Source of the DNA: a virus
Strand: one strand, 5' to 3'
Length of the DNA stretch: 64,000 nt
Virus record (IMG/VR): IMGVR_UViG_3300045051_000720
Coordinates: 155,465 to 219,464 of that record
Shown here piece by piece: positions 2,876-61,437 of this stretch (position 1 is the first letter of the stretch; each line of letters begins with the position of its first letter). The translations under genes were made by a program, and so were the position numbers. The notes beneath the pieces were generated by a model. The model was not told the DNA's origin and searched no databases. It was given only the letters and a program-made list of their open reading frames with translations.

Positions 2876-4645
2876 TTGAAGACTCTCATCTACCGCTTCC
2901 GACTTGCTCCTAGCGTGCATCAATGTGCCATGATTGAGGCGAGTAACACACAACTGTGTCGGGTATGGAATGCTTTAGTAGGTGCCACCAAGCACGCCGA
3001 GCACGAATGCAAGCATGGACGCAAGACTTGCGTGGTCAAGCGATTAACTGATTTGCTGACCCAGAAGAAAGTCGTCGGGATGCGCGCGGCTGCCGTGAAA
3101 AAGCTGGCAGAATCCAAAGCAATATCATTAACGGATGCCAACAATCTTCTCACCCGCGAGCAGGTCGCCCGTGAGAGTCGCACGATTGTGCGCAAGAATG
3201 GAACCAAAGCGCGACGGTGTTCTATTCGTAAGCTGGCGTTGGCCTATGCCATTGCTACGGTAGGTCATCAGATCAACCGCTTCGGAGTGGAATCCGCCGC
3301 GTTTTGGGGAGTGATTGAAAAATTCAAAACCTCTACCGCCGACTATCCATTGGGCAAACGGGGTGCGCCCCGATTCAAACGAGTGGGTGATAACGTGTCC
3401 ATGCAGGCTCAGACCAAGAATCAACACGTCAAGGAGGGGGTCGTTGACCTATCGCGTTTAGTCGGTTCTAGTTGTTCCTGTGTCCACATGATTCAACACC
3501 GCCCGATTCCAGACGGCGCGATTGTCAAGCAGATGGCCGTGGTTAAGCAAAATGACCGGCTGTTTGTGGCCATCTTTGTTGATGTGCCAGATGCGGCGGC
3601 GCAAAAGAGTTTAATGGCAGCTAGTGGAGCGACGGCTGGTATTGATCCCGGCCGTAAGACGGCAGTGTCGCTCAGTTCTACAGACGGAACAATCCAACAG
3701 GTTGTCTCGCCCCCACTCTTGCGGGACAAACGGTTCATGCGTCGCACGGCGCGGTTGGCACGCAAGTTGGACAGGCAACGCCGCTTTGCCAATCCAGACC
3801 GCTACAATGAGGATGGCACCTTCAAGCGCGGAGCGCGCGGTGTGTGGGTGACAACCAAGGGAATGACTAAGACCCAAAAGCGTGCGAACGATTTGCGTCG
3901 CCGTCTTGTGGATGTACGCACAGAGCACTATCGTCTCAAAGCGCGCGAAGTGTTGAATCAGTTTGACCACGTTGGGATCGGTACATGGCGGCCCAAGGGT
4001 GCGCCGGGTGAAGGACAAGCCAAACGCGCACAGTTGCGCAAGGACGCAGATAACGCTTTGGGTCAATTCGCGGGTATCCTTCGGGACTATGCTGCGCGCA
4101 ATGTGACCCCCAAGAAGATCTACGATATCAATGAGGTCAACACCACCCGTCGTTGCATCAATTGTGGCGAGATGACGGGGCCGAGTGGGTTGTCCAACCT
4201 TGGGGTGCGCGAGTGGACGTGTTCCCACTGTGGTGCCCACCATCAGAGAGACTTTGCTAGTGCGCGAGCTATCGCTCTGCGCACTCAAATCGTGGCCGAT
4301 ACGCATTTGGTTAACGATGGTCCAACGACCAAAATTCAGCCTGTTCGTTATGCCGCAAAGCGTAACAAACGAAGTGGGTTGGTGGCGACACCAATCAATG
4401 TGCCCGTGGAACAGGAAGCGGAGGCCGCGAGGTCCCGTCTGAGTAAAAACGGTGCTCGTGCGAGTGCCCCAGTGGTAGACCATCCGGCCGATTGCACTCG
4501 CGTGCGAAAAGCCAATGCTGACGAAGGCTCTAGCAATATCCTCGCGTCAGAGCCAGCTACCAATGCCTGCAAAGGTAACCATCGCTCGCATAGTTGCGCC
4601 GTAGAACTTGAGTCCACGGTAGTTGTGGAGGAACACTCACTATGA
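2876..4645 (+). CDS. tnpB: TnpB/OrfB-family RNA-guided nuclease homologue with rearranged RuvC site
   Basis: 589 residues from a TTG start set by the promoter. The N-terminus (YRFRLAPS.HQ) is typical of OrfB/TnpB. The RuvC-I Asp is in GIDPGRK (about D257), followed by a long Arg-rich bridge-like helix. At the usual RuvC-II place the sequence is DHVGIGTWRPKG, without the expected Glu. A Glu instead sits just before the zinc ribbon in INEVNTTRRC (about E420), the place used by 'rearranged' TnpB proteins and Fanzors. The zinc ribbon is C-x2-C (about 427/430) and C-x2-C (about 449/452), and the last Asp is in RDFASARAI (about D459). About 120 further residues form a basic, low-complexity tail unlike core TnpB; the 3' end of the gene may also encode guide RNA. 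No tnpA and no clear IS200/IS605 ends were seen. TnpB normally cuts DNA guided by omega RNA; activity here is inferred. It could also be a dead regulator (TldR-like) if E420 is not catalytic. Confidence 0.9.
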   Translation: MKTLIYRFRLAPSVHQCAMIEASNTQLCRVWNALVGATKHAEHECKHGRKTCVVKRLTDLLTQKKVVGMRAAAVKKLAESKAISLTDANNLLTREQVARESRTIVRKNGTKARRCSIRKLALAYAIATVGHQINRFGVESAAFWGVIEKFKTSTADYPLGKRGAPRFKRVGDNVSMQAQTKNQHVKEGVVDLSRLVGSSCSCVHMIQHRPIPDGAIVKQMAVVKQNDRLFVAIFVDVPDAAAQKSLMAASGATAGIDPGRKTAVSLSSTDGTIQQVVSPPLLRDKRFMRRTARLARKLDRQRRFANPDRYNEDGTFKRGARGVWVTTKGMTKTQKRANDLRRRLVDVRTEHYRLKAREVLNQFDHVGIGTWRPKGAPGEGQAKRAQLRKDADNALGQFAGILRDYAARNVTPKKIYDINEVNTTRRCINCGEMTGPSGLSNLGVREWTCSHCGAHHQRDFASARAIALRTQIVADTHLVNDGPTTKIQPVRYAAKRNKRSGLVATPINVPVEQEAEAARSRLSKNGARASAPVVDHPADCTRVRKANADEGSSNILASEPATNACKGNHRSHSCAVELESTVVVEEHSL

Positions 4646-17470: not shown

Positions 17471-17718
17471 CCACATCTATACCCCAATGGGTTCTCGACG
17501 CCGCCTCCGAGATCGGAGGGATCGGCGAGCATGGTGTCCAGCGCACCGCCCAGATCATCGCCAAGCACTGCCGCGCGAGTGATCGCTACCGGGCTGCTCT
17601 GGTCGCGCTGGTGGGTTCCGATGATCCCAAGACCCTGCGGGGCATCCGCGCCTATACGGTTCAGTATGCCCCCAACGAGACCGCCATTCTCAACGCCATC
17701 GATCTGTTGCTCGAATGA
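17467..17718 (+). CDS. Hypothetical helical protein
   Basis: 83 residues, ATGA-coupled. Contains a GG-rich turn (IGGIGEHGVQ) between helices. Unknown. Confidence 0.7.
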   Translation: MTTSIPQWVLDAASEIGGIGEHGVQRTAQIIAKHCRASDRYRAALVALVGSDDPKTLRGIRAYTVQYAPNETAILNAIDLLLE

Positions 17719-18095
17719 ACTGGCGCGCCATGGCCAAGGCCCCGAAGGACGGGACCCATATTCTGCTCGCCTACCCCTCGTTCAGCGACAACGGTCAGGT
17801 CTATGTGGGGATCGGGAGGTGGGTGGATTGCCCACCCCAAGCCGCGGTCGAGCGCGAATGCCGTGAGGCTTATGACCAACACCGTCCTGTTGTGCCTGTC
17901 GATCCGGGCAAACCCCACTGGGAGGTCGCCTATGTCGCGGAGCTGGAGCACGGCGGGGCCTATAACGGCCACTCCTACGAAGCGCGCTCGGCAACCATCC
18001 ACCATCCGTTTGGTTGGATGCCGTTGCCCAAGACGCCCAAGCGTATGTGGCGAGCGACCGCGTCGTTGTCCTACCTGTCCTACCTGAGGGATTGA
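17715..18095 (+). CDS. DUF551-like phage protein
   Basis: 126 residues beginning MNWRAMAKAPKDGTHILLAY, then a strand with GRWV and a late region FGWMPLPKTP. This 'W..m..aPkDG..vl' start with a later 'ThW.pLP'-like segment is the sign of DUF551, a widespread phage family of unknown role. Confidence 0.75.
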   Translation: MNWRAMAKAPKDGTHILLAYPSFSDNGQVYVGIGRWVDCPPQAAVERECREAYDQHRPVVPVDPGKPHWEVAYVAELEHGGAYNGHSYEARSATIHHPFGWMPLPKTPKRMWRATASLSYLSYLRD

Positions 18096-18100
18096 CCCTA

Positions 18101-18128
18101 TTGCGCGCGCCGCGCGGTGTGTTACCAT
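18101..18128 (+). promoter_or_regulatory. Leaderless promoter for gene 18135
   Basis: TTGCGC (18101-18106), 16 bp, TACCAT (18123-18128), six bases to ATG. Dyad AGGG-attga-CCCT lies just upstream. Confidence 0.65.
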
Positions 18129-18134
18129 CCGACC

Positions 18135-18680
18135 ATGAAGACCATCACCCTTCATCGCCTCAAGACCATCCTTGAGAACCTGACCCACGCCACGCCCGTG
18201 GGTGTCATCGCTTTGACCACCGCGGACTGCCGCGCCAAGGGGCCAACCGGCCCCAACCCATGGGGCAAGGATGGCGTCAAGAAACTGACTCGGCTTAACG
18301 CTATGATCGGCACGGACCACGAGCTGTCCATCCAGCGCCAACAGGCCCGCGAGGGTCAGGAAGCCGATTTCCTCGCTGCGCCGCGCTCATGGGGCGTTCG
18401 GATCGGACCGGGGTTGGTTGAGCATAGGGGGCAGTACTATTTGCCTCTCCAACTCAGTCCCGTCAACGCGGTGCGTCCATTATACTTGGTCCCCCGAGAA
18501 CGCGGGGCCAAGACCATCCTCACCGCCGTACCCAAGGAAATCGTTGCACCGTGGTTATCACCCGCGCGGGATGAGCGTGTCTATCAGGGGGTAGTCCGAC
18601 CGGTAGTTAGGCGCGATCTAAGGCTTGACAGTATCGTTAGCATCACTCTTGGCGGGGAGAAGTATCGCATTAGATCTTGA
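18135..18680 (+). CDS. Conserved phage protein of unknown function
   Basis: 181 residues. The segments GVIALTTADCRAKG, KLTRLNAMIG, RQQAREGQEADFLAAPRSWG and a C-terminal LDSIVSITLGGEKYRI follow a plan I know from phage proteins of unknown role. Leaderless. Its stop overlaps the -35 of the promoter that reads into the pentamer array, so its 3' end is close to that element. Confidence 0.8.
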   Translation: MKTITLHRLKTILENLTHATPVGVIALTTADCRAKGPTGPNPWGKDGVKKLTRLNAMIGTDHELSIQRQQAREGQEADFLAAPRSWGVRIGPGLVEHRGQYYLPLQLSPVNAVRPLYLVPRERGAKTILTAVPKEIVAPWLSPARDERVYQGVVRPVVRRDLRLDSIVSITLGGEKYRIRS

Positions 18681-18705
18681 CACTAGGCATCGTTTGGCAA
18701 CACTT
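18677..18705 (+). promoter_or_regulatory. Promoter reading into the pentamer array
   Basis: TTGACA (18677-18682), 17 bp, ACACTT (18700-18705). The predicted start, near 18712, is the beginning of the repeat array. The -10 is weak, so this is a candidate only. Confidence 0.5.
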
Positions 18706-18707
18706 AA

Positions 18708-19110
18708 AGGCGGGGCTTGGCAGGGCTGGGCACGGCGGGGCACGGTTAGGCAAGTGTAAGGCAAGGAACGCGGTTCGGTATGGCAACGCGGGGCGACGCC
18801 GGGTTTGGCCGGGCGTGGCCGGGCGCGGCGAGGTTGGGTTAGGCATGGAACATGGTGTGGTGAGGCTGGGTATGGCGGGGCATGAGTAGGGCGAGGAACA
18901 TGGTAGGGCAAGGCTGGGCGCGGCTGAGCAGGGTCAGGTCCGGTACGGCTAGGCTCGGTTAGGCAAGGTCCGGGGCAGCGCGAGGTGTGGCACGGCTTGG
19001 CTGGGCAACGCACGGCCGGGTCCGGCGAGGCAAGGAACGAGGTGAGGTGGGGCAGGGCAGCGCGCGGCGTGGTCAGGCAGGGCTTGGCAGGGCAACGCAA
19101 GGTCCGAGGC
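18708..19110 (+). repeat. Degenerate 5-bp-periodic array (GGC/GGT plus two variable bases), about 80 units
   Basis: For about 400 bases the + strand can be cut into 5-base units of the type GGCNN or GGTNN (equally NNGGY), for example GGCGG GGCTT GGCAG GGCTG, later CCGGT ACGGC TAGGC TCGGT. The frame slips by a base at a few places and some units carry CGC, GAG or GTG instead. The two free positions vary without obvious repeat. The + strand is strongly purine-rich and T is rare. It is not a CRISPR array (no repeat/spacer of normal size). Open frames on both strands exist only because the repeat lacks stop codons. It has a promoter-like site at its left and ends just before the promoter of gene 19246. 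Confidence 0.85.
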
Positions 19111-19138
19111 GCGACGGTCTATCCGCGCACAATTTCTC

Positions 19139-19167
19139 TTGACAGTAGGCTCTAACATCACTACCTT
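19139..19167 (+). promoter_or_regulatory. Promoter of the RAMP-like gene pair, with leader
   Basis: TTGACA (19139-19144), 17 bp, TACCTT (19162-19167). Predicted start near 19174 gives a leader of about 72 nt before ATG 19246, in contrast to the leaderless rule; the leader ends with CCGAACGAGACAACG. Confidence 0.65.
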
Positions 19168-19245
19168 CACATTATCTCCAATAGGCACCTACGCTCAGAC
19201 AATCACGTCAACGAGCATCACTCGTGACCGAACGAGACAACGCAC

Positions 19246-19908
19246 ATGCAAAAGTATAATATCGCACTCGTTGGGGCAAATCCGCTCCTTCTTCATCACG
19301 ACAACATCTCGTGGGCTGGGCTCATGAACGAATGGAATACGGACCCCGCGAACAAAGCCAAGTCCGTCGCGGGCGACGACCGCACTCCCGCTCACCGTTG
19401 GATTGGTTGTCTATACCACGAGGGTGGTCGTCTCATCGTCCCCAGCGATAACCTCATGACTATGCTGCGTGAGGGTGGCGCGCGATGTCCGACTGGAAAG
19501 AAAGGCGCGACGTTCAAACGTCAGACCCAATCCGGGCTGGTTGTCGACCAGAGCGGATGGTCCTTGACTGTTGATGGCAAGGAAATCCCCTATGATCCTA
19601 TTGCCAAGCTTATCGACGAGCCCGACTTCACCAAGCACGAGAAGACGGTAGCGAAGATGGGTTTTGCGCTGTTTGTTAAACGCGCCCGTGTCAACCAGAC
19701 CAAACATGTCCGTGTGCGTCCTCGGTTCGACCGTTGGGAGGCGGCGGGCTCCATTACCGTGTTCGACGATACTATCACTGACCGCGTACTCGAAGACATC
19801 CTCAAGTTTGGAGGTCGTTACGCCGGTCTTGGCGATTGGCGTCCATCATCCCCGAAATCCCCCGGACCATTCGGAACCTTCACGGTGACCGTTTCCCCCG
19901 CATCATGA
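19246..19908 (+). CDS. Conserved phage protein with RAMP/Cas7-like glycine-rich motif
   Basis: 220 residues. Starts with a strand and the segment GANPLLLHHDN; then WIGCLYHEGGRLIVPSDNLMTML, RARVNQTKHVRVRPRFDRWE and, near the end, GGRYAGLGDWRP (about 189-200) and GPFGTFTV. The plan (short first strand with 'pLL.H', 'g.l.iP..n....l', then 'vrprf..W' and 'G..vGlGdwRP...G.fG.f') matches a widespread uncharacterised phage family. A glycine-rich loop before a final strand is a mark of RAMP proteins such as Cas7 and Cas5, so an RNA-binding fold is a reasonable inference, not shown. It follows the 5-bp array directly and overlaps the next gene by ATGA. Confidence 0.8.
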   Translation: MQKYNIALVGANPLLLHHDNISWAGLMNEWNTDPANKAKSVAGDDRTPAHRWIGCLYHEGGRLIVPSDNLMTMLREGGARCPTGKKGATFKRQTQSGLVVDQSGWSLTVDGKEIPYDPIAKLIDEPDFTKHEKTVAKMGFALFVKRARVNQTKHVRVRPRFDRWEAAGSITVFDDTITDRVLEDILKFGGRYAGLGDWRPSSPKSPGPFGTFTVTVSPAS

Positions 19909-20378
19909 GCGCAACAACCAAACTCTTCGGCGGCGGCGTTCCTACTCAACCCGAGGTTGAAAGCCTGATCAAACGATTTGGTGTTCCTGCGGTAGGGACA
20001 TCGATTCTCTATGTCGATATTGCGGCTACCATTGGACATCCTGTTCGTAGCAATCGCTATCTCGCTGTAGTATCAAGGTGGCGTAAACGTCTGTTCCAGC
20101 AGCATAATCTATTGCTGGACCCTATTCATGGTGAATCCTATACGGTCTGTAACAACAGCCAACGTATTTCCCACAGCACTGGCAAGTACAAAAGCGGCCT
20201 TCGGCATATTCGACGTGCGTCCGAAGTAGCTGCTCGGACCGACACAGAAGGATTGCTTCCCGACGAGATGCGGGCTCGCGACCATATCGTCAAGACCGGT
20301 AATGCTTTGCAGCTAGCGGCGGCCACTGCCGCACGGCAACTCAAATATGTTGCGCCGGGGCTACCTCAGTCAACGTGA
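19905..20378 (+). CDS. Partner protein of the RAMP-like gene
   Basis: 157 residues, ATGA-coupled to 19246-19908. Contains ILYVDIAATIGHPVRSNRYLAVVSRWRKRLFQQHN, where an alpha-helical, winged-helix-like DNA- or RNA-binding unit seems likely, then ESYTVCNNSQRISHSTGKYK and a helical end. A downstream partner with 'r....v..WRkrl....n' is, as far as I recall, usual for this family of gene pairs. Function unknown. Confidence 0.75.
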   Translation: MSATTKLFGGGVPTQPEVESLIKRFGVPAVGTSILYVDIAATIGHPVRSNRYLAVVSRWRKRLFQQHNLLLDPIHGESYTVCNNSQRISHSTGKYKSGLRHIRRASEVAARTDTEGLLPDEMRARDHIVKTGNALQLAAATAARQLKYVAPGLPQST

Positions 20379-20400
20379 AGATGTCACGTACCGTTTTACC

Positions 20401-20838
20401 ATGACCATCGTTGACACCTCCACCCGCCTCCCCACCACCCCCGGACCCTACGCGGTTCTGGTCAAACCCGCACAGGGCTACCACCGCGCCATTGAGACCG
20501 GCGTGAGCTGGGATGGGTCATGGAAAGGGACCGATGATCCCGTCGTCGCGTGGGTTGACACCGCCGCGCGCGTTGCCGTTGTGCCTTCTCCGACTCAGGC
20601 GGTTGAACCCTCATCCTATTCCCTCACCCTCGTGGGCTTCGATCCTACCAGCAAGATCGGCGTGATCAAGCTCGTGCGCGAGCTGACGGGGCTCGGGTTG
20701 GCTGAATCCAAAGCGACGGTCGAGGCCCTTGCGATCAAACCCCTCATGATCAAGGAGAATGCTTCTCGCGCCGAGGTAACCGCACTGGACACCCGTCTGC
20801 GCGCGGCGGGTGGGGTGACCAAACTGGAGGCCGTATGA
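20401..20838 (+). CDS. Protein with ribosomal L7/L12 C-terminal-like domain
   Basis: 145 residues. The first 65 residues are a separate beta-rich part (APYAVLVKPAQGYHRA... type). Residues of about 72-144 match the bacterial L7/L12 C-terminal domain: SYSLTLVGFDPTSKIGVIKL, VRELTGLGLAESKATVEAL, PLMIKENASRAEVTALDTRL and RAAGGVTKLE. The Lys and Gly residues of the factor-binding face (KIGVIK, GLGL.ESK) are mostly kept. In ribosomes this domain recruits EF-Tu and EF-G. Here it may bind ribosome factors or simply reuse the fold. Start: ATG 20401, 20 bases after the previous stop. Confidence 0.85.
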   Translation: MTIVDTSTRLPTTPGPYAVLVKPAQGYHRAIETGVSWDGSWKGTDDPVVAWVDTAARVAVVPSPTQAVEPSSYSLTLVGFDPTSKIGVIKLVRELTGLGLAESKATVEALAIKPLMIKENASRAEVTALDTRLRAAGGVTKLEAV

Positions 20839-21053
20839 CCGACCGACTCAAAGGCTGCACTGTGATCTTCGATCACGACATCCGCGTGGATGACGCCGAG
20901 GCCCTACTCAATGCTATACGCATGATCAAAGGTGTCCAATCGGTCGAACCCTCCATCAGCACGAGCGAGGATTGGATGGCCGCGCGCAAGGCGAAGACTG
21001 ATATGATCAATGCCTTCCAGACGTGGCTCAACGAGCAGTGGGACAAGCGATGA
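20835..21053 (+). CDS. Conserved small phage protein
   Basis: 72 residues, ATGA-coupled. LKGCTVIFDHDIRVDDAEAL then LNAIRMIKGVQSVEPSIS is a pattern I know from several phages: a small beta-alpha-beta protein of unknown role, with 'F..DIR.DDAE....AI.MI.GV..V.P'. Confidence 0.8.
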   Translation: MTDRLKGCTVIFDHDIRVDDAEALLNAIRMIKGVQSVEPSISTSEDWMAARKAKTDMINAFQTWLNEQWDKR

Positions 21054-21484
21054 ACCGTTCCACTTTTCTCCGTACCATCCTCGCCGCCCCAGCCGCGCTG
21101 TGGGCTTTGACCCGTCCCACCCACGCGGTCGATTGGCGCAAGGAGGTAGACCCCAAGCTACCCCGCGTTCGCGCGGCGGTGTGCTATCAGCGGTTCTACA
21201 CCAAACTGACCGAGCGTGTCGTCCCACTGCGCGGGCCTTACAGTGTGCCGCTCCGAACCCATTGGATTGTCGGAAGTACGGCCGAGGGTGACACCGACCG
21301 CTTCCGCCAGCTCGAACGGTTCGAGCGTGGCGAGTGGGTGGTCGAAGACTGTTGGCGCGAGCAGGGAAGAAAACGCATCAGGGGTTCGCTCCAACTGAAC
21401 CGATGGTCCTACGTCTCTAATCGTGCGTCGTGGGCGCGGGACATCGTTGCTATCGCGCGGTGGTCAGAGTGGGAGACGACATGA
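21050..21484 (+). CDS. Exported protein of unknown function
   Basis: 144 residues. Signal peptide at residues 1-25 (NRSTFLRTILAAPAALWALTRPTHA), probably Sec-type with cleavage after AHA-like THA. The mature part is basic and Trp-containing. ATGA-coupled on both sides. Periplasmic or secreted. Confidence 0.7.
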   Translation: MNRSTFLRTILAAPAALWALTRPTHAVDWRKEVDPKLPRVRAAVCYQRFYTKLTERVVPLRGPYSVPLRTHWIVGSTAEGDTDRFRQLERFERGEWVVEDCWREQGRKRIRGSLQLNRWSYVSNRASWARDIVAIARWSEWETT

Positions 21485-21684
21485 CCCACCCAACAGATCT
21501 CCGCGATACCGTCAGTTCCCGCATCCGCCGCACGGTCGCGGCCAAGGCTTACAACCGCATCCATGCGTTCAACGCGGGCCGCGCCGAACCCCTCACCGAT
21601 GACGAAACCCACTGCTGGGCGGCGGGCTTCATTCAAGGCTACCTGCTGCGCCGCAACGAGCAGGCCAAGAAGAAGACGCGGTGA
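21481..21684 (+). CDS. Hypothetical small protein
   Basis: 67 residues. Basic, helical; DDETHCWAAGFIQGYLLRRNE is a segment similar to those seen in other small phage proteins. Next gene begins with GTGA at its stop. Confidence 0.7.
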   Translation: MTHPTDLRDTVSSRIRRTVAAKAYNRIHAFNAGRAEPLTDDETHCWAAGFIQGYLLRRNEQAKKKTR

Positions 21685-60729: not shown

Positions 60730-61437
60730 ATGTCTTACGGACTCATCTATCTCGCCACTAATCAAGATAACGGGCTCAAATATATCGGACAGACTGTGGC
60801 TACCCTCATCACGAGACGCCAAAAACACATTGATTCGGTAAACGCGGGTAGCACGACCTATTTTCACAACGCGATGCGTAGTCATGGGATAAACGCATTT
60901 GCGTTTACTGTGATCGATACCGCCGACTCCCAAGATGAACTAGACCGCAAAGAGCGGTATTGGATACAGTATTATGAGACTCGCGAGCGCACTAAGGGAT
61001 ATAACACCAAAGACGGCGGTAAACTAGGTGCCGTCCTCAACGAAGATATTATCCGCAAAATCAGTCAAGCCAATACAGGTAAAAAACGTTCCCCGGAAGC
61101 ACGAGCGAAAATGTCGGCCCGCAAAAAGGGTATCCCTAATCCCGCGCATTCGGAACGGATGAAACGTCTGTTTCAGGAGAGACCTAGCTGGTGGATAGGC
61201 AAGACGCATACCGAGGACACAAAGAGGCTACTGGCCGATAAACACCGAGGCAAACACCATTCGCCACATACGCAATACCCGTCAGTAACTATACAATGCG
61301 TGGAGACGGGTGTAATTTTCCCGTCCATCTCTGCCGCGGCACGCCATGTAGGTGTCAATCCGTCAGGCTTCGACCGGCTTAAAAAACATCCGAATCAGCG
61401 TGTCAAAGGGTTTCATTGGGTGCGTCTGACAGCTTAA
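60730..61437 (+). CDS. GIY-YIG homing endonuclease
   Basis: 235 residues. GIY-YIG core: GLIYLATNQDNGLKYIGQT, R and H in TRRQKHID, Glu in ELDRKERYWIQYYE. NUMOD3 repeats follow (ISQANTGKKRSPEARAKMSA, RKKGIPN..HSERMKRL), and an HTH-like end (ISAAARHVGVNPSGFDRLKK). A mobile nuclease; poorer in G and C than its neighbours. It sits between phoH and a fragment that resembles the end of a PhoH protein. Confidence 0.9.
   Translation: MSYGLIYLATNQDNGLKYIGQTVATLITRRQKHIDSVNAGSTTYFHNAMRSHGINAFAFTVIDTADSQDELDRKERYWIQYYETRERTKGYNTKDGGKLGAVLNEDIIRKISQANTGKKRSPEARAKMSARKKGIPNPAHSERMKRLFQERPSWWIGKTHTEDTKRLLADKHRGKHHSPHTQYPSVTIQCVETGVIFPSISAAARHVGVNPSGFDRLKKHPNQRVKGFHWVRLTA

Follow-up and report, generated by a model that had tools for sequence, protein, structure and literature searches.

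The closest described counterpart of the locus analysed here is VIPR, a kind of system known since April 2026 from a preprint (PMC13142463), which was the sole publication on VIPR found in our literature search. In VIPR, vrRNAs composed of GGY/NN units are carried by Vipr, a RAMP protein, and the NN letters read DNA with a one-base skip (PMC13142463). In Escherichia phage SUSP1, the vrRNAs co-purify with Vipr, DNA recognition by the NN letters skips one base at a time, reprogramming of these letters sets the choice of target, and binding leads to repression of transcription and to a block of phage (PMC13142463). Published vrRNAs are 9-16 units long (PMC13142463). VIPR has been proposed as an ancestor of CRISPR RAMPs and as an inter-phage weapon.

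The window, i.e. the whole 64-kb stretch of DNA that was analysed, is the final part of a 219,464-base virus record. We consider, with a probability of approximately 93%, that this jumbo phage record harbours a phage-borne VIPR locus that would operate as described below. The locus is most likely a minimal CRISPR-like system, in which a small RNA-coating protein and approximately six guide RNAs would switch off genes of rival viruses. An initial sequence-only reading had presented it as an undescribed system; as VIPR was already reported (PMC13142463), it is rather a further VIPR example, seen here in a 219-kb virus record and with a distinctive guide-array layout. Its features, all on the plus strand, are as follows, with guides given as the NN letters of the unit parse.

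18677-18705, plus strand: promoter-like sequence TTGACA-17-ACACTT, just before guide 1, with a weak -10 box (ACACTT)
18707-18769, plus strand: guide 1, nine clean units (AA GG TT AG TG AC GG AC TA), followed by an irregular stretch and AA-GGAAC
18770-18851, plus strand: guide 2, 16 units (GC TC AT AA GG GA CG TT CG GT CG GC GA TG TA AT), ending in GGAAC
18852-18899, plus strand: guide 3, six clean units (AT GT GA TG AT GG) and an irregular stretch like that of guide 1, approximately nine units in total, ending in GGAAC
18900-18971, plus strand: guide 4, 14 units (AT AG AA TG GC TG AG CA CC AC TA TC TA AA), ending in GGTCC, a boundary less certain than the GGAAC ones
18972-19038, plus strand: guide 5, 13 units (GG AG GA GT AC TT TG AA AC CG CC GA AA), ending in GGAAC
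19039-19105, plus strand: guide 6, 13 units (GA GA GG AG AG GC GT CA AG TT AG AA AA), ending in GGTCC
19139-19167, plus strand: predicted promoter TTGACA-17-TACCTT of the vipr-vap operon, which fits a promoter class repeated in the record
19246-19908, plus strand: ORF A, 220 aa, Vipr (single-domain RAMP, phrog_4652), from PHROG assignment, fold and profile match
19905-20378, plus strand: ORF B, 157 aa, winged-helix-like Vap-like accessory protein, from a family profile shared with SUSP1 vap and an AlphaFold model; overlaps ORF A

Positions 18707-19105 form an NN-GGY pentamer array. Between 18700 and 19120, the identity at lag 5 reaches 0.517, versus 0.323 +/- 0.021 for 500 shuffles that preserve dinucleotides (z 9.1). 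Harmonics are seen at lags 10, 15, 20, 25 and 30, and this is the region of highest lag-5 signal in the window. Across 71 clean units, the information at N, N, G, G and Y amounts to 0.11, 0.05, 1.48, 2.00 and 0.95 bits, respectively, and 15 of the 16 possible NN pairs are present. The periodicity and the bits per position agree with the initial description of some 400 bases of five-base units, with GGC or GGT mostly fixed and two variable bases. Within the window, GGYNN chains are found on the plus strand at the array only, with none on the minus strand, and the 219,464-base record contains no second GGYNN array on either strand. Tandem Repeats Finder gave no report in the array, and Rfam revealed no known RNA within 17500-21500. 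Stretches of DNA in the Mycobacterium phages Donkeykong and Philus match the array at 68-71% identity.

The sequence-only reading mentioned few frame slips along one RNA of approximately 80 units. Slips are indeed present, but they are not random: in the unit parse, the register shifts by +2 at six sites, all of them GGAAC or GGTCC and usually with RA in front. They divide the array into six segments of approximately 9-16 units, the published length of vrRNAs, and rather than one long RNA the array appears to represent approximately six concatenated guides. Guides 1 and 3 each contain a similar irregular stretch. No long 3' tail such as those of the SUSP1 vrRNAs is evident between the guides, where the short RA-GGAAC/GGTCC element is found instead. 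Among the clean units, 28 are common to different guides versus 29.5 +/- 2.1 in shuffles; as this sharing is no higher than in shuffled sequences, the guides differ from one another and are not duplications.

ORF A belongs to phrog_4652 (E 3.3e-16), as does SUSP1 Vipr (E 1.4e-96), and the profile of its family matches the solved SUSP1 Vipr chain (PDB 36pp) with an E value of 4.9e-44. A single BLASTP comparison showed the two proteins to be 22% identical along almost their entire length (E 9e-12). The AlphaFold model of ORF A, built from an alignment with 51 relatives found beside arrays, has a pLDDT of 92.5 and a pTM of 0.88. With this model, a Foldseek search of the PDB at E<=1e-3 yielded 24 matches, all of which are CRISPR-complex chains (type VII, Csm and III-D) that we read as RAMP subunits. 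The RAMP fold of ORF A is thus predicted with high confidence, in line with the RAMP-like character first suspected for this protein. All conserved Vipr residues are present in ORF A, which corresponds to the ~20-kD RAMP protein, Vipr, expected in VIPR loci. Homologues of ORF A were also found on Azospirillum oryzae and Bradyrhizobium plasmids (H44-H46, 25-28% identity).

As noted from the outset, the two genes are coupled through an ATGA overlap, with ORF B starting at 19905. ORF B joins a family of array-adjoining genes, with an E value of 1.3e-9 on first detection, and the final profile of this family, ORF B included, finds SUSP1 vap (E 6.5e-17); the direct match to the PHROG of vap is weak (phrog_5926, E 0.14). 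Through this profile family, the locus has the vap gene found beside vipr in VIPR. In the AlphaFold model of ORF B (pLDDT 90.9), a winged-helix-like N-terminal part is accompanied by two long helices; the PDB matches obtained with Foldseek were all weak and of HTH type. The gene directly 3' of ORF B (20347-20838, plus strand) codes for a product that contains the C-terminal domain of ribosomal L7/L12 (PF00542, E 5e-14). Further away in the window are the genes for a 589-aa TnpB/Cas12f-like protein (2876-4645, plus strand; Cas12f1-like TNB domain, E 8.8e-10), the second protein of RNA-guided type encoded by this phage, and for a GIY-YIG/NUMOD3 protein that is probably a homing endonuclease (60730-61437, plus strand).

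TTGACA boxes are present at 18625, 18677 and 19139, and promoters had been proposed at both edges of the array. The proposal holds best for the right edge, where the box at 19139 has the spacing and the AAC...CTA context of a promoter class, TTGACA-N9-AAC-N4-CTAnnnT, that is recurrent in the record, with many sites in G000:C1:1-157000 (L122-L129), often with an ATG close behind. From these sequence features, it is very likely that the vipr-vap operon is served by a promoter of its own at the right edge, separate from the array. The candidate at the left edge (18677) has a weak -10 box and was missed by a generic sigma-70 scan, which detected no plus-strand promoter at the locus; that the array is transcribed from its own promoter there is plausible.

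We looked for similar loci from both sides. In an array-first approach, IMG/VR was scanned for nine consecutive GGYNN units, which yielded at least 120 stretches. Among the matches listed, an ORF A homologue is present in 60 of 121 loci, window included, at a median distance of 26 bases from the array. No ORF A homologue was found in the available DNA of the other 61 array loci (e.g. L033 and L049), some of which are short or break off at the array, while some are plain repeats and some may be orphan guide arrays. For the protein-first approach, a search with ORF A as the single query found no relatives. Using the three closest sequences as queries and disregarding arrays, we collected 78 relatives from IMG/VR, some of them on near-identical contigs. 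Same-strand arrays lie within -800/+1400 bases of 74 of these genes, as opposed to opposite-strand arrays in none of the 78, and the remaining flanks of these loci (340 kb) contain nine chains only. ORF B homologues were detected in 50 of the 78 loci by a single-sequence search. Among isolate phages, arrays are present in LESphi2, LittleE, Trine and wV8 (4/4), and SUSP1 has one as well. Similar arrays thus do occur beside homologues, and together with the strong lag-5 signal and the predicted RAMP fold, all three tests proposed in the sequence-only reading turned out in its favour. The strand-specific linkage in the protein-first set makes the locus an independent support for the pairing of array and protein.

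Could the array have arisen without any guide function? Slippage can produce period-5 repeats, and the region is G-rich, as might be expected of a degenerate microsatellite or a compositional artefact beside an unrelated gene. However, slippage does not yield a fixed GGY with near-random NN letters; unit sharing between the guides is at the shuffled level (28 vs 29.5 +/- 2.1), and the gene-linked arrays of the relatives, on the same strand in 74/78 cases and on the other in 0/78, contradict this explanation, whose probability we regard as negligible. The recognition sites of TRAP, triplets with two bases between them, look like a 5-base period. The triplets and two free bases of the array resemble such sites, and the RAMP-like protein might bind its own GGY repeats in a cis-regulatory leader that controls the operon, with NN letters devoid of target information; in relatives, the array frequently stops a short distance before the start codon of gene A or B. 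Arrays are nevertheless also found downstream of both genes, with up to twelve different guides, an independent promoter is predicted at 19139, between the array and the gene, and the choice of target follows NN reprogramming in SUSP1 (PMC13142463). On the strength of array placement, this promoter and the SUSP1 data, we set the leader aside as highly improbable.

A decayed or drifted VIPR locus, whose guides no longer act, would account for the irregular stretches of guides 1 and 3 and for targets not having been found. Both ORFs are intact, though, the conserved Vipr residues are all there, GGY is retained in most units and so is the operon promoter, which makes such decay very unlikely. We therefore favour a functional VIPR locus. 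Its array, guide segmentation, family membership and predicted fold of ORF A, array-gene linkage and Vap relationship are established by the present analysis. As the anatomical features that could be compared agree with those of SUSP1 VIPR except for the missing long tail, we take the same mechanism for the locus, with guide binding, one-base skip and repression carried over from the published work on SUSP1 (PMC13142463). The region 18707-19105 would be transcribed as, or processed into, approximately six vrRNAs, each an NN-GGY run ending in RA-GGAAC (or GGTCC); we infer both transcription and processing at GGAAC. Vipr (ORF A) would bind the guide with approximately one subunit per five-base unit, such that GGY is held and NN presented. 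The NN letters would then pair with double-stranded DNA as NN-x-NN-x, one base being skipped at each step, and the bound complex would prevent genes in rival phages or satellites, the presumed targets, from being transcribed, with the assistance of the putative DNA-binding Vap (ORF B). That the array RNA is coated or read by the RAMP-like protein and that its two variable bases are informative had been anticipated from the sequence, and by analogy this matches the SUSP1 mechanism (PMC13142463).

Eight-unit NN-x-NN patterns of five guides (1, 2, 4, 5 and 6) were searched for in IMG/VR, and with the published rule no target was found above chance. Pattern matches were few, being many for the GC-rich guide 2 only, and those of guides 2, 4, 5 and 6 did not extend past the search pattern. 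A candidate target of guide 1 in a prophage (L182), with 18/18 matching NN letters, was rejected: 16 of them are the search pattern itself, and the following units mismatch. Searches with nearly full-length guides 2 and 4 and three mismatches yielded nothing in 50 records, 49 of which are of relatives, and no target of guide 5 was found in the phage itself. When 220 nine-unit windows were compared with both strands of 3.6 Mb of collected sequence, none of the skip rules 0-3 stood out, nor did any with 180 guides against 4.9 Mb. The absence of such a signal is expected, since the collected sequence is not enriched for targets.

The punctuation of the array is shared by relatives. The shift is exactly +2 in 68 of their 85 short gaps between consecutive chains, and GGAAC is found in nearly all of 40 gaps displayed. 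Most guides that terminate in this way comprise 8-11 units (n=77, with copies from near-identical contigs counted). In the protein tree, the GGAAC delimiter is common to one clade that comprises the window, L261 (Geothrix campi), L188/L189 and L190-L196; the automatic parse also gave single cases in L225, L226 and L264. Long arrays of other phages (L057 and L110) have another delimiter, a 4-base unit in GGCAGGC with a -1 shift, every ~8-10 units, and tail-like spacers take the place of the delimiter in L073 and L060. We tentatively propose, as a possibility that is on balance rather doubtful, that GGAAC-delimited, spacer-free arrays represent a distinct VIPR sub-architecture, in which GGAAC would serve as both tail and boundary, i.e. 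as a processing or phasing signal. If so, many guides could be obtained from one transcript without separate tails. GGAAC or GGTCC with the exact +2 shift provides a sequence rule for cutting long arrays into guides, which is required before target prediction in the clade of the window.

Among known systems, class 1 CRISPR-Cas complexes resemble the locus through their RAMPs (type VII Cas7, Csm3/Csm5), whose fold is that predicted for ORF A, and, by analogy, through a guide RNA that is coated by a protein filament and left unpaired at periodic positions. They differ in their 6-base period, as opposed to the 5-base period in the window, and TM-scores are ~0.4-0.5. A CRISPR array was considered and rejected: Tandem Repeats Finder revealed no long identical repeats and spacers at the locus, the units of which are of 5 bases with a fixed GGY, and no cas family was recognised among the neighbouring ORFs tested (Pfam, NCBIfam) or, with PADLOC, for ORFs A and B. 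With the type II VIPR of SUSP1 (PMC13142463), the locus shares the Vipr PHROG, the Vap profile family, and GGY/NN guides that have a corresponding length and the same orientation as the genes. In contrast with the separate ~100-nt vrRNAs with structured 3' tails of SUSP1, the guides of the window are joined without spacers, with GGAAC/GGTCC punctuation and a +2 shift, and Vipr identity is 22%. Judging from their description, the 'staggered arrays with overlapping vrRNAs' of VIPR (PMC13142463, fig. S18) are likewise multi-guide, without separate units, and on that description the GGAAC-delimited layout may correspond to them.
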